IMG/VR virus record: IMGVR_UViG_3300025083_003781
Span: 1-27,386 of that record
Length of the DNA stretch: 27,386 nucleotides
DNA from: a virus
Direction: 5' to 3' (one strand)
In this document: one piece after another, positions 4,154 to 9,489 of the stretch
How the letters are laid out: every line of letters starts with the position of its first letter
Position numbering within the stretch: the first letter of the stretch is position 1
Notes under the pieces: model-generated
Seen by the model: only the letters and a program-made list of their open reading frames with translations
Database searches by the model: none
What the model was told of the DNA's origin: nothing
Translations under genes and position numbers: made by a program

Positions 4154-4230
4154 TGGTACGTCGAGTAGGATTCGAACCTACGACTTTCTGATTCGTAATC
4201 AGACACTCTATCCAACTGAGTTACCGACGC
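4154..4230 (-). tRNA. tRNA-Arg (anticodon ACG)
   Basis: Cloverleaf on the minus strand with anticodon loop TTACGAA, stem TCTGA/TCAGA, T arm GTAGG-TTCGAAT-CCTAC and encoded CCA. The acceptor has G1:U72 and G7:U66 wobbles. It stands apart from the main array, beyond the metallophosphoesterase gene. A34 would need deamination to inosine to read CGC and CGA. Confidence 0.9.
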
Positions 4231-4435
4231 ATATAAAGTATGAGGGAGTCGACCGTTTACACAATCCTTATCCTCGTTATCAACCTCATCACGTGCATGA
4301 GGAATTACAAACTCGACCTAAATACCAATCTATGAGTCGGTCATATTCATAGACTTTTTCGCCAAATTATGCTTGAACTATTGCAACTATCAGAGGCATG
4401 GCAGGTAAGTTGGTATGAGGAGCAATTATACCCTA
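4231..4435. other. Gene-free spacer with two hairpins
   Basis: No frame is supportable in this 205-base gap. It contains a CCTCAT/ATGAGG hairpin at 4284-4302 and a TCTATGA/TCATAGA hairpin at 4329-4353. The latter is followed by a T-run on the plus strand, so it would terminate plus-strand rather than minus-strand transcripts. Confidence 0.5.
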
Positions 4436-5140
4436 CTATCGATGATGTGTTATATCCAACAGCTCATCAATGTTGAGAATTCTGCTAGTACATCCATCAT
4501 ACTCACTCGTTTCGCTGAGATGAAAGTGTCCACAGTAATGTCTCTTGGGGTTGCATTGTTGAACTAGTTTGTCGATATTACTCCGCTCACCTCGAAGTTC
4601 ATTCCATAATGTCTCATCCTTCTCCAACCAATACGCGATTGGATCCTTATTAGCAGGACCATTCCATGATGGTGCAGAGTGAGTGATAAGTACATCACAC
4701 TCCTCGATCTTATCAGAGTCAAGTACAAATATCTCATCCTTCCAATAGCTCTTACCTTCGATTCTCATCGTACGGTCAACGCTGATCGCACCTCCAACAA
4801 ACTGAAATGTCTTACCACCTAGCTTCCTAACAGTATAATCTTGTAGGAGCTCGAAGTTGGAGAATTTATAAGAACCATCGAAGTACTCAGGGTCATCGTG
4901 ATTACCTCTGATGCCTAGAAATTGGATGTCTCTTTCAGCGAAGAGCTCATTCATTTTACCAATTTCATCATCATAAAACTTCTTTGACCTGAACCCAAGA
5001 CCGATGTCACCAACATGGATGATAGTACATCCGCGGATGTTATGCTTCTTGATATTGAACTTAAGTGGTCCCCAAGTTCCGTGCGTGTCGCCCAGCGCGT
5101 ATATAGTTTCACTCATAATTTCGTATGATTTAAGCTTCAT
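4436..5140 (-). CDS. Calcineurin-like metallophosphoesterase
   Basis: The 234-aa protein carries all signature blocks of the family in order: GDTHG (Asp18, His20), VGDIG (Asp45), RGNHDD (Asn80, His81), ITHSAPSWNG (His154) and GHFHLSE (His205, His207). These bind two metal ions and hydrolyse phosphomonoesters or diesters. Length fits a single catalytic domain. The start at MKLKSYEI follows the local A/T-rich leader; an internal ATG eight codons later is an alternative. The gene sits inside the tRNA region, between the large array and tRNA-Arg(ACG), which makes an RNA-end or nucleotide phosphatase role attractive, but the substrate is not evident. Confidence 0.85.
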   Translation of the reverse strand: MKLKSYEIMSETIYALGDTHGTWGPLKFNIKKHNIRGCTIIHVGDIGLGFRSKKFYDDEIGKMNELFAERDIQFLGIRGNHDDPEYFDGSYKFSNFELLQDYTVRKLGGKTFQFVGGAISVDRTMRIEGKSYWKDEIFVLDSDKIEECDVLITHSAPSWNGPANKDPIAYWLEKDETLWNELRGERSNIDKLVQQCNPKRHYCGHFHLSETSEYDGCTSRILNIDELLDITHHR

Positions 5141-5160
5141 ATTATTGTTATATTAATGTT

Positions 5161-5201
5161 CCTATCTTAATAAGGCAACGGTTTTACAGACCGCCGATAG
5201 G
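5161..5201 (-). promoter_or_regulatory. Leader stem-loop upstream of the metallophosphoesterase gene
   Basis: CCTATC (5161-5166) pairs with GATAGG (5196-5201) and, inside it, CGGT (5179-5182) pairs with ACCG (5190-5193). It sits between tRNA-Lys and the gene start and may separate tRNA processing from the mRNA. Function is inferred only from position. Confidence 0.35.
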
Positions 5202-5221
5202 GACAACCTCTACTTAAAAAT

Positions 5222-5297
5222 TGGTACGGGCGGTGGGGGTCGAACCCACGACATACTGGTTAAAAGCCAGGTGCTCTACCAACTGAGCTACACCCGC
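5222..5297 (-). tRNA. tRNA-Lys (anticodon TTT)
   Basis: Anticodon loop CTTTTAA in stem CTGG/CCAG, normal D and T arms (T loop TTCGACC), acceptor GCGGGTG closed with a G1:U72 wobble, and CCA encoded. It is the last tRNA before the metallophosphoesterase gene in the direction of transcription. Confidence 0.9.
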
Positions 5298-5305
5298 ATA
5301 TAAAG

Positions 5306-5380
5306 TGGCCGGTAGTGTAGGTAACGATCCTACCTATCAAGAGCTTCAATCTTGCGCTAATCCATCTCAGCTAACTACCG
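5306..5380 (-). tRNA. tRNA-Phe (anticodon GAA) with unusual T loop
   Basis: Anticodon loop TTGAAGC in stem CAAGA/TCTTG, acceptor CGGTAGT/ACTACCG with discriminator G and encoded CCA. The T arm is GTAGG-ATCGTTA-CCTAC: the loop has A54 and T58 where T54 and A58 are normal, a swap of the conserved pair. Confidence 0.85.
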
Positions 5381-5389
5381 ATTATAAAG

Positions 5390-5466
5390 TGGTACCGAAG
5401 GTGGGACTCGAACCCACAAATTCCTGATCCTAAATCAGACGCCTATGCCAATTCGGCTACTTCGGC
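5390..5466 (-). tRNA. tRNA-Leu (anticodon TAG) with short variable loop
   Basis: Anticodon loop TTTAGGA in stem TCTGA/TCAGG, acceptor GCCGAAG/CTTCGGT and encoded CCA. The variable region is only about five bases (AATTT), whereas bacterial leucine tRNAs normally carry a long variable arm; the other Leu tRNA here (6880-6965) has one. Confidence 0.85.
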
Positions 5467-5476
5467 TTTAAAAACT

Positions 5477-5549
5477 TGGCACCGTCGCGAGGTAACGCTC
5501 CCCGACTTTTGGTTTTGGAAACCAAAGCTAAGACTTCTTAGACGACGAT
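5477..5549 (-). tRNA. tRNA-Trp (anticodon CCA) with reduced D and T loops
   Basis: Anticodon loop TTCCAAA in stem TTGGT/ACCAA, acceptor ATCGTCG/CGACGGT, discriminator G and encoded CCA. The D arm is CTAAG-AAGT-CTTAG with no GG, and the T loop is AGCGTTA rather than TTCRANY. Both partners of the usual D-T loop contact are therefore altered. Confidence 0.8.
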
Positions 5550-5599
5550 AATGTTCTCCTATCCTTATAGTTTAAATTTGAAGATGACATCTTCAAAAA

Positions 5600-5673
5600 T
5601 GGACGTGGGAGTGAGAATCGAACTCACTTAAAGAGATTTGCAATCTCCGACCTAACCATTCGGACATCCCACG
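5600..5673 (-). tRNA. tRNA-Cys (anticodon GCA)
   Basis: Anticodon loop TTGCAAA in stem GGAGA/TCTCT, T arm GTGAG-TTCGATT-CTCAC, acceptor CGTGGGA/TCCCACG, discriminator T and encoded CCA. Confidence 0.9.
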
Positions 5674-5677
5674 AAAT

Positions 5678-5763
5678 TGGTGTGCGCAGATGGAGTCGAA
5701 CCACCCGAGTCGCTAGACAGTTGATTTACAGTCAACACCGCTACCCCTACGGTATATACGCAC
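5678..5763 (-). tRNA. tRNA-Tyr (anticodon GTA)
   Basis: Anticodon loop CTGTAAA in stem GTTGA/TCAAC, with the long variable arm expected of bacterial Tyr tRNA. Acceptor GTGCGTA/TGCGCAC, CCA encoded. Confidence 0.9.
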
Positions 5764-5771
5764 TTAAAAAT

Positions 5772-5847
5772 TGGCGGCCCTGCTCGGACTTGAACCGAGA
5801 ACACACAGAATCAAAATCTGTTGCTCTACCAATTGAGCTACAGGGCA
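5772..5847 (-). tRNA. tRNA-Gln (anticodon TTG)
   Basis: Anticodon loop TTTTGAT in stem ACAGA/TCTGT, T arm CTCGG-TTCAAGT-CCGAG and encoded CCA with discriminator G. The first acceptor pair is T1 opposite C72, a mismatch; weak first pairs are tolerated and even favoured by GlnRS. Confidence 0.88.
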
Positions 5848-5910
5848 ATAAAAGATTATCTGTTGTTAGCTAAACTTATAGGGACAGAAAACTCCCACTT
5901 TAACTTCGAA

Positions 5911-5988
5911 TGAAACACTCTCCGAGTCGAACGGAGTTTAGGAAACCCTTATGCAGCCGCGCACCTCTAGCTATGAGGCTTGTGTTTC
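5911..5988 (-). tRNA. Aberrant tRNA-like element (no readable anticodon stem)
   Basis: Acceptor GAAACAC/GTGTTTC, D arm CCTC/GAGG and T arm CTCCG-TTCGACT-CGGAG are intact, so this looks like a tRNA from both ends. The anticodon region contains TGCATAA, but its flanks do not pair, position 33 would be G, and CCA is not encoded. It may be a decaying tRNA-Met(CAT) or a tRNA mimic. Confidence 0.55.
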
Positions 5989-6102
5989 GTTAAAGAGAAA
6001 ATGTTTGTAGATCGTTATTGTTTAGATCATTCAGGTTATTTCCAAACCTTTTGTTCAGGAGTCGGGTCACTCGAGTAGACGGACTGCCGTATAGATTTAA
6101 AA
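5989..6102. other. Gap in the tRNA array without an assigned element
   Basis: About 110 bases between two aberrant tRNA-like elements. I see no cloverleaf, no encoded CCA and no supportable frame. It may be the remains of a tRNA. Confidence 0.4.
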
Positions 6103-6197
6103 GGAGAACTGCGGAGTCGAACCGCTCTTTCTTTGCTATTCAGTACAAATACAATACACCCTGGAGAGGGGCTGTGCTACCGTTACACTAAGTTCTC
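6103..6197 (-). tRNA. tRNA-like element, possible Glu (CTC), with a 30-nt insertion
   Basis: Acceptor GAGAACT/AGTTCTC, D arm GTG-TAACGGTAG-CAC and a T arm with TTCGACT are present. A four-pair stem GCCC/GGGT frames loop CTCTCCA (anticodon CTC). It is followed by an extra hairpin of about 30 bases, TATTGTA/TAC..AATA. CCA is not encoded. It is a near-duplicate of the next element in all arms except the anticodon region. Confidence 0.5.
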
Positions 6198-6204
6198 ATA
6201 AAAA

Positions 6205-6272
6205 TGGAGGAGAACTGCGGAATCGAACCGCTCTTTCTTTGCAGTGATGTGCTACCGTTACACTAAGTTCTC
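6205..6272 (-). tRNA. Shortened tRNA-like element, partner of 6103-6197
   Basis: Acceptor, D arm and T arm are nearly identical to the preceding element, but only about 17 bases lie between D and T arms (TCACTGCAAAGAAAG), too few for a normal anticodon arm plus variable loop. A terminal TCCA is encoded. It is either a deletion derivative or an anticodon-less tRNA mimic. Confidence 0.5.
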
Positions 6273-6279
6273 ATAAAAA

Positions 6280-6367
6280 TGGAGGAGGGTAGAGGAATCG
6301 AACCCCCACAGTTTTACCCATGGCACGGATTTCAAATCCGCTTACGCACCATTGCGTGCTACCCTCC
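6280..6367 (-). tRNA. tRNA-Ser (anticodon TGA)
   Basis: Anticodon loop TTTGAAA in stem GCGGA/TCCGT, long variable arm (about CCATGGG), acceptor GGAGGGT/ACCCTCC, discriminator T and encoded CCA. Discriminator T is unusual, since bacterial Ser tRNAs normally have G73. Confidence 0.88.
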
Positions 6368-6372
6368 AAAAG

Positions 6373-6448
6373 TGGTAGGAGAAGCCGGGATCGAACCGAC
6401 GACCTCCTGAATGTAAATCAGATGCTCTACCAACTGAGCTATTCTCCT
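6373..6448 (-). tRNA. tRNA-Val (anticodon TAC)
   Basis: Anticodon loop TTTACAT in stem TCTGA/TCAGG, T loop TTCGATC, acceptor AGGAGAA/TTCTCCT, discriminator A, encoded CCA. Confidence 0.9.
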
Positions 6449-6454
6449 ATAGAA

Positions 6455-6530
6455 TGGTCCGCGGGGAAGGACTCGAACCTTCTTCACTTGATTCACAGTC
6501 AAGGACATTAACCGGTTATGTTACCCTCGG
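6455..6530 (-). tRNA. tRNA-His (anticodon GTG)
   Basis: Anticodon loop CTGTGAA in stem CTTGA/TCAAG, T arm GAAGG-TTCGAGT-CCTTC and encoded CCA. The acceptor CCGAGGG/CCCGCGG has one internal A:G mismatch. The base at -1 is T, so the G-1 needed by HisRS would have to be added or replaced after transcription. Confidence 0.85.
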
Positions 6531-6537
6531 ATTAAAT

Positions 6538-6616
6538 TGGTTGCGGAGGTAGGATTTGAACCTACGATGACCTGCTTATGAGACAGGTGACTTAAACCAG
6601 ACTTGTCCACTCCGCG
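6538..6616 (-). tRNA. tRNA-Met (CAT), probably initiator
   Basis: Anticodon loop CTCATAA with stem CCTGT/GCAGG, T arm GTAGG-TTCAAAT-CCTAC, encoded CCA. The acceptor begins C1 opposite A72, the mismatch that marks bacterial initiator tRNA. The three G:C pairs normally next to the anticodon of initiators are absent, so the assignment is not certain. Confidence 0.75.
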
Positions 6617-6625
6617 ATTAAAAAT

Positions 6626-6702
6626 TGGTATGAGGAGTAGGACTTGAACCTACGACCTACGAGATATGAGCTCGTTGCTCTAACCACCTGAGCTATCCTC
6701 AC
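6626..6702 (-). tRNA. tRNA-Met elongator (CAT), or Ile2
   Basis: Anticodon loop CTCATAT in stem ACGAG/CTCGT, T loop TTCAAGT, acceptor GTGAGGA/TCCTCAT with G1:U72, encoded CCA. A separate Ile(TAT) gene next to it makes a lysidine-modified Ile role less needed, so elongator Met is preferred. Confidence 0.8.
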
Positions 6703-6709
6703 ATAAAGT

Positions 6710-6786
6710 TGGTACGCCAGGAGGGGCTTGAACCCTCGACCCTGCCCTTATAAAGAACACGCTCTAACCAACTGAGCTACTGGCGT
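6710..6786 (-). tRNA. tRNA-Ile (anticodon TAT)
   Basis: Anticodon loop TTTATAA in stem TGTTC/GGGCA (two G:U pairs), T loop TTCAAGC, acceptor ACGCCAG/CTGGCGT, encoded CCA. It reads AUA directly, a codon common in A/T-rich phage genes and served in many bacteria by Ile2 with lysidine. Confidence 0.85.
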
Positions 6787-6797
6787 ATTATAAAAAT

Positions 6798-6872
6798 TGG
6801 TGCAGGTAGAGGTAATCGAAACCTCGTCTCAGCGTTGGCAACGCCATGTAATAGCCACTATACTATACCTGC
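6798..6872 (-). tRNA. tRNA-Gly (anticodon GCC)
   Basis: Anticodon loop TTGCCAA in stem TGGCG/CGCTG, T arm GAGGT-TTCGATT-ACCTC, acceptor GCAGGTA/TACCTGC. The minus strand ends in ACCA, so CCA is encoded. Confidence 0.87.
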
Positions 6873-6879
6873 AATAAAG

Positions 6880-6965
6880 TACGGAAGGTGGGACTCGAAC
6901 CCACAAGGACGTTGCCATCCATCGGAACTTAAACCCGACGTGTTTACCAGTTTCACCACTACCGC
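6880..6965 (-). tRNA. tRNA-Leu (anticodon TAA)
   Basis: Anticodon loop TTTAAGT in stem TCGGG/TCCGA, a long variable arm, T arm GTGGG-TTCGAGT-CCCAC. The acceptor GCGGTAG/CTTCCGT has one T:T mismatch, and CCA is not encoded (the end reads ACTTT). Confidence 0.85.
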
Positions 6966-6981
6966 TTTGAATATTAAAAAA

Positions 6982-7056
6982 TGGAGTAAGTGATGGGACT
7001 TGAACCCACAACCTTTTGATTGGAAATCAAAAGCTCTACCATTGAGCTACACTTAC
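6982..7056 (-). tRNA. tRNA-Gly (anticodon TCC)
   Basis: Anticodon loop TTTCCAA in stem TTTGA/TCAAA, T arm with TTCAAGT, acceptor GTAAGTG/CACTTAC, discriminator T as in bacterial Gly tRNAs, encoded CCA. Confidence 0.9.
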
Positions 7057-7065
7057 TTAAAAAAA

Positions 7066-7139
<74 letters not shown>

Positions 7140-7148
7140 TTAAAAAGT

Positions 7149-7224
7149 TGGTGGAGGTAACCGGATTCGAACCGATGACATCCTGCTTGCAAAGCAGGCG
7201 CTCTACCAACTGAGCTATACCCCC
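7149..7224 (-). tRNA. tRNA-Ala (anticodon TGC)
   Basis: Anticodon loop TTTGCAA in stem CCTGC/GCAGG, T loop TTCGAAT, acceptor GGGGGTA/TACCTCC that contains the G3:U70 pair recognised by alanyl-tRNA synthetase, discriminator A and encoded CCA. Confidence 0.92.
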
Positions 7225-7230
7225 GAAAAA

Positions 7231-7307
7231 TGGTAGGACTGAAAGGATTTGAACCTTCGACCTTTCGCTTATCAGGCGAATGCTCTAACCAACTGAGCTA
7301 CAGTCCT
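7231..7307 (-). tRNA. tRNA-Ile (anticodon GAT)
   Basis: Anticodon loop CTGATAA in stem TTCGC/GCGAA, T loop TTCAAAT, acceptor AGGACTG/CAGTCCT, discriminator A, encoded CCA. Confidence 0.92.
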
Positions 7308-7311
7308 ATGA

Positions 7312-7420
7312 AAACTATACACAGTGAGGATCTGCACCTCACAACTTACTCCGCTTCGACACCTTTCGGCTGCGTTTCTTTGCCAATAAGCATACCTATT
7401 TTGCTATATGTGTATAGTTT
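7312..7420 (-). ncRNA. tRNA-like RNA with an 11-bp acceptor-like stem
   Basis: AAACTATACAC (7312-7322) pairs perfectly with GTGTATAGTTT (7410-7420). Directly inside the 3' side is a T-arm-like hairpin GTGAGG-CCTCAC (7324-7342) with seven-base loop TGCAGAT. The middle holds a CC-GAAA-GG tetraloop hairpin and a CATA/TATG stem. No anticodon stem is readable and CCA is not encoded. It occupies a regular slot in the tRNA array. Confidence 0.5.
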
Positions 7421-7426
7421 AAAAAT

Positions 7427-7501
7427 TGGCGGGAATGACGAATTACGATATCGCGACCTCCGGCGTGACAGGCCGGCGCTCTTCCTCTGAGCTACATCCC
7501 C
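7427..7501 (-). tRNA. tRNA-Asp (anticodon GTC) with unusual T arm
   Basis: Anticodon loop CTGTCAC in stem CCGGC/GCCGG, acceptor GGGGATG/CATTCCC, discriminator G as in Asp tRNAs, encoded CCA. The T arm reads GCGAT-ATCGTAA-TTCGT: the closing pair is T:T and the loop lacks TTC. Confidence 0.85.
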
Positions 7502-7508
7502 ATAAAAA

Positions 7509-7610
7509 TGGTCGGCTGCGCATTTAAGCTATGGACGGCCGATGCGCCCTCTGTGTGGTAGAACTCTTACGACAAAAGTCTTTTTATAATAGGATGTTAC
7601 CTATCACCAC
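7509..7610 (-). ncRNA. Candidate tRNA-like structure with pseudoknot next to 3' ACCA
   Basis: The minus strand ends in ACCA (7509-7512). Just before it GCCG (complement at 7513-7516) can pair with CGGC (7538-7541), and ATGCGC (7518-7523) pairs with GCGCAT (7542-7547), forming an H-type pseudoknot like the acceptor ends of plant-virus tRNA-like structures. Further upstream are an ATAGG/CCTAT hairpin (7589-7604), a GAC/GTC hairpin and a closing GTGGT/ACCAC stem (7555-7559 with 7606-7610). No ordinary tRNA fits here. Confidence 0.4.
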
Positions 7611-7634
7611 CAGAAACGAATGATTAAATCACAA

Positions 7635-7708
7635 TGCTTCAAGCAGGATTCGAACCTGCGTTTCCGTCTGATAGCGACGGCGCCCTAGTCCACCTAGACG
7701 ATTGAAGC
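7635..7708 (-). tRNA. tRNA of uncertain identity (loop GCTATCA)
   Basis: A good cloverleaf: acceptor GCTTCAA/TTGAAGC, anticodon stem CCGTC/GACGG, T arm GCAGG-TTCGAAT-CCTGC. The seven-base loop GCTATCA places C at position 33 instead of the near-invariant T, with nominal anticodon TAT (Ile). A one-base shift would give ATC (Asp). CCA is not encoded. Confidence 0.65.
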
Positions 7709-7710
7709 GC

Positions 7711-7799
7711 ACTAATAATAAGTGTAGGAAATCATATTATTAGTGTGTGATTAATGCTATATTTTAAAGTAGTCCTACACTAACTTTAGGTCATAACAA
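7711..7799. other. Spacer with inverted repeats inside the tRNA array
   Basis: ACTAATAAT (7711-7719) pairs with ATTATTAGT (7735-7743), and GTGTAGGA with TCCTACAC around 7722-7779. The two pairings interlock. No tRNA or frame is seen. Confidence 0.4.
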
Positions 7800-7803
7800 A
7801 AAT

Positions 7804-7878
7804 TGGCATTCCAGACGGGATTCGAACCCGTGATACCGCCGTGAAAGGGCAGCGTGATAACCACTTCACTACTGGAAC
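7804..7878 (-). tRNA. tRNA-Glu (anticodon TTC)
   Basis: Anticodon loop CTTTCAC in stem CTGCC/GGCGG, T arm ACGGG-TTCGAAT-CCCGT, acceptor GTTCCAG/CTGGAAT with G1:U72, discriminator G, encoded CCA. Confidence 0.9.
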
Positions 7879-7887
7879 ATAAAAATT

Positions 7888-7983
7888 AAATTCAACATGA
7901 CATACGAATCGAACGTATTTTCTTAAGCAGATACTTATTATAGAACCACTGCCGCTAGCTATCACGGTAGTCATGTTGAATTT
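7888..7983 (-). ncRNA. tRNA-like RNA with a 14-bp acceptor-like stem
   Basis: AAATTCAACATGAC (7888-7901) pairs perfectly with GTCATGTTGAATTT (7970-7983). Immediately inside is a canonical T arm, ATACG-TTCGATT-CGTAT (7902-7918), and a D-like arm CCG/CGG. The anticodon region (around CTATAAT) has only a GCAG/CTGC closing stem and no seven-base loop. CCA is not encoded. It has tRNA ends without a decoding arm. Confidence 0.55.
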
Positions 7984-7989
7984 TAAAAA

Positions 7990-8079
7990 TGGAGGAAGAT
8001 TAGGTAATCGAAACCTAATAGCTATAAAGCCATCCCATTGTTTAGCAAACAAGTCCAGAACCTATCTGGTCAATCTTCC
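7990..8079 (-). tRNA. tRNA-Ser (anticodon GCT)
   Basis: Anticodon loop TTGCTAA in stem CTTGT/ACAAT, long variable arm, T loop TTCGATT, acceptor GGAAGAT/ATCTTCC, discriminator T and encoded CCA. Confidence 0.88.
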
Positions 8080-8087
8080 GTTAAAAA

Positions 8088-8164
8088 TGGTACACCAGGA
8101 GGGATTTGAACCCCCGACCCAAGCATTAGAAGTGCTTTGCTCTATCCAGCTGAGCTACTGGTGC
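8088..8164 (-). tRNA. tRNA-Arg (anticodon TCT)
   Basis: Anticodon loop CTTCTAA in stem AAGCA/TGCTT, T loop TTCAAAT, acceptor GCACCAG/CTGGTGT, discriminator A, encoded CCA. It reads AGA/AGG, favoured in A/T-rich phages and rare in many hosts. Confidence 0.9.
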
Positions 8165-8168
8165 ATTA

Positions 8169-8244
8169 TGGAGCTGAATGTCAGATTCGAACTGACGACA
8201 TCCTCTTTACAAGAGAGGCGCTCTACCAACTGAGCTAATCCAGC
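8169..8244 (-). tRNA. tRNA-Thr (anticodon TGT)
   Basis: Anticodon loop CTTGTAA in stem CCTCT/AGAGG, T arm GTCAG-TTCGAAT-CTGAC, acceptor GCTGGAT/ATTCAGC, discriminator T, encoded CCA. Confidence 0.9.
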
Positions 8245-8252
8245 TTTGAAAT

Positions 8253-8327
8253 TGGCTCCAGAGGAAGGATTCGAACCTTCACTTTTACGATTAACAGTCG
8301 TATGCACTACCGTTATGCTACTCTGGA
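8253..8327 (-). tRNA. tRNA-Asn (anticodon GTT)
   Basis: Anticodon loop CTGTTAA in stem TACGA/TCGTA, T arm GAAGG-TTCGAAT-CCTTC, acceptor TCCAGAG/CTCTGGA, discriminator G, encoded CCA. It is the first tRNA of the array in the direction of transcription. Confidence 0.92.
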
Positions 8328-8915: not shown

Positions 8916-9082
8916 GTATCCATTCATTCATTGGGTGGAAGTATGACCCACAAACACTTAACGTGCTTCTGCGGATATATTTACTTTCAATGTTGACCTG
9001 TGTCGTGTTCATTCTATTCTATTTATACATATTTTTCTTCTTCTTAAAGTTTAATTTGCTTTTTCTTACCTTGTTAAATAAT

Positions 9083-9111
9083 ATTATACACTATAATCTA
9101 TGGTTTGTACA
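9083..9111 (-). promoter_or_regulatory. Promoter in repeat copy 1 for the RNA/tRNA region
   Basis: Minus strand TGTACA (9106-9111), 17-base spacer, TATAAT (9083-9088). The same -35/-10 pair and spacing appears before RNase H and the glycosylase-like gene. Start near 9076. Confidence 0.75.
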
Positions 9112-9177
9112 TAATATAATTCAGTTTTTTTCTTCTTCTTAAAGTTTAATTTGCTTTTTCTTACCTTGTTAAATAAT

Positions 9178-9206
9178 ATTATACACTATAATCTATGGTT
9201 TGTACA
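9178..9206 (-). promoter_or_regulatory. Promoter in repeat copy 2 for the RNA/tRNA region
   Basis: An exact duplicate of the promoter at 9083-9111, shifted by 95 bases: TGTACA (9201-9206), 17-base spacer, TATAAT (9178-9183). Start near 9171, downstream of the tmRNA-like RNA. Confidence 0.75.
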
Positions 9207-9240
9207 TAATATAATTCAGTTTTTTTCTTCTTCTTAAAGT

Positions 9241-9321
9241 TGGTGGAGCATAGGGGAATTGAACCCCTGTCCGCGATCACTGGGTTATACCCTATCACTC
9301 ACGTCGAAACCTGTATGCCCC
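9241..9321 (-). ncRNA. tmRNA tRNA-like domain lacking the internal mRNA domain
   Basis: The 5' end GGGGCAT pairs with ATGCTCC before A-CCA, including G3:U70, the alanine identity pair. After the acceptor comes ACAGGTTTCGACG, matching the UUCGACG signature near the 5' end of bacterial tmRNA. The 3' part GGAC-AGGGG-TTCAATT-CCCCT matches the tmRNA T arm. It has no D arm or anticodon arm. A normal tmRNA has some 200-350 bases between these halves (pseudoknots and tag frame), but here there are about 25, capped by GGGT-ATA-ACCC. The tag frame is missing or lies elsewhere. The tmRNA relation is strong, the function open. Confidence 0.8.
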
Positions 9322-9332
9322 GCAATCACCTT

Positions 9333-9472
9333 CATACTCTCTCAGATGCACACGGGAATTTTTATACCCGTCCAATGGAGTCACCCATAGTTAACACAAT
9401 CAGTTTCCGTGACTAAATCGGAAGTTCACTTGTGCGGCAAGTTTTCTGACTTAATGCACCTGAGAAAGTATG
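9333..9472 (-). ncRNA. Pseudoknotted RNA domain directly upstream of the tmRNA-like domain
   Basis: The 18 bases at 9455-9472 pair with 9333-9350 over their length (two G:U wobbles), closing a domain. Inside are hairpins ACTTG/CAAGT (9428-9442) and ACGGG/CCCGT (9352-9371), and a pseudoknot: ATGG/CCAT (9375-9388) with six-base loop pairing to GTGACT (9409-9414). It ends 11 bases before the tRNA-like domain. It could be the displaced mRNA/pseudoknot domain of tmRNA. I find no tag ending in Ala-Ala; one short frame ends ENLPHK before a stop. Confidence 0.55.
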
Positions 9473-9489
9473 TAGGTTTTAAATGGTTA

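Follow-up and report, generated by a model that had tools for sequence, protein, structure and literature searches.

An IMG/VR virus contig of 27,386 bp (IMGVR_UViG_3300025083_003781, analysed at full length and called the window here) carries an 81-nt element at 9241-9321 that is the tRNA-like domain (TLD) of a transfer-messenger RNA (tmRNA), with the mRNA-like domain swapped for a short hairpin. tmRNA is the RNA by which bacteria rescue stuck ribosomes, and G3:U70 is the alanine identity pair. We found that the element belongs to a covarying family of phage RNAs in which this pair is strictly kept, and such a mini-tmRNA probably jams or diverts the host ribosome-rescue system.

The Rfam tmRNA model RF00023 matched the element with 62.3 bits (gathering cut-off 47, E 2.5e-22 for the window, cmscan), and this was the only tmRNA match above the cut-off in the contig. 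The first-pass annotation, which had recognised a tRNA-like domain and named this search as a check, was borne out by it. The alignment ran end to end over model positions 1-374, with 11 nt of the element between the P2 strands where the model has 303 positions, so that the short hairpin described in place of the pseudoknots and tag frame was also confirmed. Pseudoknots, tag reading frame and resume codon, as found in a complete tmRNA, are absent. The landmarks were all recovered, on the minus strand (no strand had been named). In the full element, read from 9321 to 9241 (GGGGCAUACAGGUUUCGACGUGAGUGAUAGGGUAUAACCCAGUGAUCGCGGACAGGGGUUCAAUUCCCCUAUGCUCCACCA), the acceptor GGGGCAT/ATGCTCC is paired at 7 of 7 positions, G3:U70 included, and is followed by GGTTTCGAC with the UUCGAC loop, GGAC, the T arm AGGGG-TTCAATT-CCCCT, A73 and an encoded CCA; there is no anticodon arm. 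The predicted fold (-27.2 kcal/mol) has the three expected helices, namely acceptor stem, capped P2 and T arm, the cap being a hairpin of 4 bp with a 3-nt loop. The window has a single occurrence of the combined pattern of GGTTTCGAC, GGAC and T arm, and none of 100 shuffles has any. ARAGORN called 25 tRNAs in the window and left the element uncalled; it lacks the anticodon stem-loop and cloverleaf of a functional tRNA, and none of the listed open reading frames of at least 60 amino acids covers it.

A covarying family in phage genomes

We scanned viral contigs with the pattern TTCGAC-N12..42-GGAC-T-arm, which is blind to the acceptor stem, P2 pairing and G3:U70. At least 119 viral loci matched. 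Among the matches listed, 114 of 119 were TLD-only with a paired acceptor, meaning that a correctly placed 5' strand makes at least 6 of the 7 possible pairs with the 3' acceptor strand, and G3:U70 was present in 91 of 93 distinct elements. A narrower completed scan returned 15 loci, 8 of them already known, from which we estimate the full pattern to be present in about 220 contigs. Of the seven new loci, independent of the first set, six were family members by covariance model. Our own model R1, built on a seed of 11 sequences that included the window element, gave 77.8 bits for that element and at least 40 bits for family members, while tRNAs and the ends of full tmRNAs reached at most 29.

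Pairing was then compared within and between molecules in 72 diverse members including the window (pairwise identity below about 80%). Acceptor pairs were formed in 503 of 504 cases, compared with 404 +/- 5.5 after strands were swapped among members. The outer six P2 pairs were formed in 387 of 432 cells (188 +/- 10 swapped) and the T stem in 357 of 360 (239 +/- 7 swapped). Because loop lengths differ, MAFFT placed the 5' acceptor strand wrongly in the diverse set, and a model of equal-length members was then used for alignment. Across 76 aligned members and 22 pairs, 95.9% of cells were paired; 527 cells had changed on both sides, against 162 in shuffled and at most 100 in slid alignments, and covariation was 0.73 against at most 0.10 when slid. 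G3:U70 was present in 76/76, whereas pairs 4, 5 and 6 covaried with four to six types each. We take this covariation as proof, at the sequence level, of selection on RNA structure and alanine identity.

The class has been overlooked because the elements checked in annotated phages carry no tmRNA annotation and ARAGORN misses 111 of the 114 viral-contig copies among the matches listed. The exact core of the window element had no match in viral contigs, and the 1-kb region around it showed no DNA similarity in 50,697 phages. Most matches in a scan of genome contigs were due to chance or to the 3' half of an ordinary tmRNA; family-like loci numbered about nine, three of which (L167, L192 and L194) sit among phage head or terminase genes. 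TLD-only-like elements were also seen in cyanobacterial assemblies (L142:2383-2466 and L213:6776-6859) with non-phage neighbours (TPR and acyl-CoA dehydrogenase proteins); these are possibly cellular or prophage remnants. One phage contig held two divergent TLD-only copies 1.3 kb apart (L075:5-84 and 1317-1395). Two kinds of candidate were rejected: the T-arm matches of Gordonia GodonK and GMA2, consistent with ends of full tmRNAs, and that of Mycobacterium Marshawn (L250), a 3' fragment adjoining an integrase and consistent with an attachment-site fragment.

Family members occur in diverse tailed phages, and their placement was recurrent. Tblastn located 18 elements, including that of Pontimonas phage phiPsal1 (which has no tmRNA annotation), with the head-maturation protease gene on one side and, typically 105-120 nt downstream, the major capsid gene on the other. 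Another five are found immediately 5' of a capsid gene, and at seven loci the element sits between the terminase and portal genes, with about 55 nt left to the latter; related contigs are included in the counts. At all capsid and portal placements the element was on the same strand as those genes. Other elements adjoin exonuclease, primase, helicase or endolysin genes. Among the matches listed, 94 of 114 viral loci had no tRNA in view, and of the tRNAs present at the others, 112 of 113 shared the strand of the element. In the Streptomyces phages LuckySocke, Shaeky and BRock the element lies inside tRNA arrays, unannotated as tmRNA, and that of BRock has UUUGAC where others have UUCGAC. GiJojo and Alone3 are candidate carriers, on the basis of matching BLAST hits.

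In 17 of 101 distinct upstream flanks a TAnnnT box stands 6-8 nt 5' of G1, where neighbouring positions would predict about 4.7 such boxes, suggesting that G1 may be the transcription start in a subset of copies. Several capsid-group loci have a terminator-like hairpin 5' of the TLD. A crude scan for terminators around family members returned almost none. At four capsid-group loci (L013, L028, L056 and L248) the stretch 3' of the TLD, up to the major capsid gene, contains a promoter-like TAnnnT box together with paired GCGTNANCGC-type repeats, which look like a conserved capsid mRNA leader.

Possible action on ribosome rescue

The element appears from its sequence to have the features that alanyl-tRNA synthetase (AlaRS), SmpB and EF-Tu recognise, without those that make tmRNA a template. 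Our favoured reading, which we regard as reasonably likely, is that it is an alanine-chargeable decoy using host SmpB and EF-Tu to block trans-translation. The RNA would take the shape of a tRNA-Ala upper half. Host AlaRS would charge it through G3:U70, and with host SmpB and EF-Tu bound it would replace host tmRNA in ribosomes that have stalled on broken mRNAs. Because a TLD-only RNA has no tag frame, the ribosome would not be switched to a template, and trans-translation would be blocked or diverted. SsrA tag and tag-directed proteolysis would then be absent and SmpB occupied. We found no SmpB gene in 50 carrier records, so the SmpB used must be that of the host. We infer expression, charging, SmpB binding and a benefit to the window phage.

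Structure, conservation and published precedent agree in favouring the alanine-charged decoy, which had been one of two functions proposed in the first-pass annotation. Mycobacteriophage DS6A is reported to have a "TLD only" tmRNA, and strong inhibition of tmRNA in E. coli by a similar TLD RNA, perhaps through SmpB titration, is on record (Mao et al. 2009, as described in PMC4131195 and PMC11915505). TLD-SmpB is described as imitating tRNA on the ribosome, and SmpB with a TLD fragment as active on ribosomes in vitro (Shimizu & Ueda 2006, as cited in PMC3929946).

Several points weigh against a decoy. Inhibition was described as occurring whether or not the RNA was chargeable (Hudson, Lau & Williams 2014, PMC4131195), so a decoy whose sole action is to titrate SmpB could do without charging, and the family nonetheless keeps the alanine pair strictly. 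With chargeability dispensable for the inhibition as published, strict conservation of G3:U70 is our one result that tells chargeable readings from pure titration; it argues against the latter at the level of sequence and leaves untemplated alanine addition open. Conservation of TTCGAC, GGAC and part of the T arm is not independent evidence, because the search pattern fixed those bases. Finally, a 123.6-kb phage contig (G005; L023/L253/L254) bears both a TLD-only element (46486-46567) and a full-length tmRNA (77588-77979), which would be unexpected of a phage that simply aims to abolish trans-translation. The tag that ARAGORN gives for this full tmRNA, SPEYRIRLLTNTKW, looks atypical.

The strict G3:U70 pair suggests that charging matters, and it would equally fit an active rescue RNA. 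Here Ala-TLD-SmpB would take the peptide at a stalled ribosome and add one or more untemplated alanines, then release or tail the chain, or would end in a dead-end peptide transfer; ribosomes would be freed for the phage without SsrA-directed proteolysis. In the same in vitro work, as cited, SmpB and a TLD fragment gave polyalanine without mRNA, and tag-less mitochondrial tmRNAs are described as kept together with SmpB. Many copies also lie in late structural operons, where there is a demand for ribosomes. No release step is known, however, and the published similar RNA was reported as an inhibitor of tmRNA. We consider such active rescue, the main rival of the decoy, doubtful, if worth keeping in view. 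If true, tmRNA would have a third mode of action, specific to phages and selected for chargeability, in which RNAs expressed from late structural operons spare phage proteins SsrA-directed degradation.

Same-strand placement just upstream of capsid or portal genes, found without exception in two phage groups, could instead mean that the TLD acts in cis, as an RNase P/RNase Z or CCA-enzyme site that separates or protects transcripts, the RNA being inert in trans. Such a site needs neither G3:U70 nor the anticodon-less tmRNA architecture, both of which are conserved. The excess of TAnnnT boxes, by which some copies may start at G1, and the terminator-like hairpins 5' of the TLD in the capsid group also speak against cis-acting punctuation, and we judge it improbable.

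The other function proposed earlier was the acceptor half of a split tmRNA, with the mRNA-like half elsewhere, for instance in the highly structured RNA directly upstream (9322-9480, z -5.8). Phages with two-piece tmRNAs are reported (PMC9004378). In the window element, however, the 81 nt supply both strands of the acceptor stem and of P2, and a partner RNA would find none free. We found no tag-like frame on the minus strand between 8900 and 9800, and the permuted-tmRNA model RF04321, whose use had also been suggested, matched the T arm only (11.3 bits). More than 100 relatives are self-contained with unrelated flanks, and the upstream structured RNA was not seen beside the TLD in L288 or the capsid-group loci. 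A split tmRNA is thus very improbable. It is just as hard to credit a non-functional remnant, either a decayed tmRNA or a host tmRNA 3' end copied at an attachment site. Integration often takes place in tmRNA genes, as the Marshawn fragment beside its integrase illustrates, but such a copy would hold the 3' end only, and for the family the idea is refuted by the presence of both halves and their covariation in over 70 diverged sequences.

The family bears on whether, and for what gain, phages interfere with ribosome rescue. A single phage gene, as in DS6A, could be a curiosity; interference with trans-translation comes to look like a recurrent phage strategy because the family covaries in many lineages, its alanine pair is fixed and the gene lies beside capsid genes. 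The family also supplies many test cases, among them culturable Streptomyces phages and phiPsal1.

Neighbourhood of the element in the window

Genes near the element (exonucleases, ribonucleotide reductase, cytidyltransferase) form a T4-like tailed phage set. Homologues of the nearby exonuclease led to 55 loci. In two of them, L282 and L288, the same neighbourhood holds a TLD-only element (62.0 and 72.7 bits, respectively); in a third relative, L308, it holds a complete permuted tmRNA (108 bits). This phage group thus has tmRNA-type genes of different forms recurring at one place. The closest relatives of the window (98-100% protein identity) stop short of the element.

The strongly structured RNA folds with -57.6 kcal/mol, and 0 of 200 shuffles were as stable. 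It matched no Rfam family, and its exact core gave no match in our search. It is a possible leader, and it stands as an unexplained neighbour of the TLD. A tandem repeat, with two identical copies of 95 bp and a partial third (20 nt), occupies 9032-9241, between the 3' end of the TLD and the tRNA array. Each full copy has a promoter-like TGTACA-17-TATAAT site on the minus strand, and these sites perhaps drive the array.

Table 1. Features of the element and its surroundings in the window
Feature	Position	Strand	Basis or remark
TLD-only tmRNA	9241-9321	-	acceptor stem, UUCGAC loop, hairpin-capped P2 helix, GGAC, T arm, A73-CCA
5' acceptor strand GGGGCAU	9315-9321	-	sequence; holds G3 of G3:U70
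3' acceptor strand AUGCUCC	9245-9251	-	sequence, cmscan alignment; contains U70
A73-CCA	9241-9244	-	directly after 3' acceptor strand
Insert in place of whole mRNA-like domain	9273-9302	-	fold: imperfect P2 helix, GGGU-AUA-ACCC cap
Strongly structured RNA, 159 nt	9322-9480	-	directly 5' of TLD; closed by CAUACUUUCUCAGGUGCA/UGCAUCUGAGAGAGUAUG
tRNA array	4154-8327	-	25 ARAGORN calls
tRNA	7430-7501		called by Rfam only
tRNA-Tyr, ATA anticodon	7893-7977		called by ARAGORN only

Comparison with known tmRNAs

The standard phage tmRNAs of Streptomyces phage BillNye and crAss-like cr106_1 share TLD, tmRNA signature and alanine identity with the window element and carry the full mRNA-like domain that it lacks. 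Two-piece permuted tmRNAs (RF04321/RF01849; phage Melnitz, L308) are likewise phage-borne; they have a permuted gene order, a tag and a P2 formed between two RNA pieces, whereas the window element has both acceptor strands in order in one piece and none of these features. Jakobid and oomycete mitochondrial tmRNA (RF02544) retains the TLD and has lost tag frame and pseudoknots, but it is organellar and usually circularly permuted, in contrast to the contiguous phage element. Closer in form is the plastid tmRNA of Mallomonadaceae, a contiguous TLD-only gene without coding sequence and of similar size (~65 bp), described as an organelle gene with two sequences reported (PMC11915505).

DS6A, known here by description only, is the phage precedent, with a contiguous TLD and no mRNA-like domain; no other TLD-only phage was reported in the open literature searched. 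The window element differs in lying in a marine-type tailed phage contig and in belonging to a family of at least about 120 viral loci, against one reported phage. The form had at first been thought unlike known ones, a view that these phage and organelle reports, as described, do not sustain: TLD-only tmRNA as a kind is already known. The new points are how large and widespread the family is, the proof by covariation, and the repeated placement beside capsid and portal genes.
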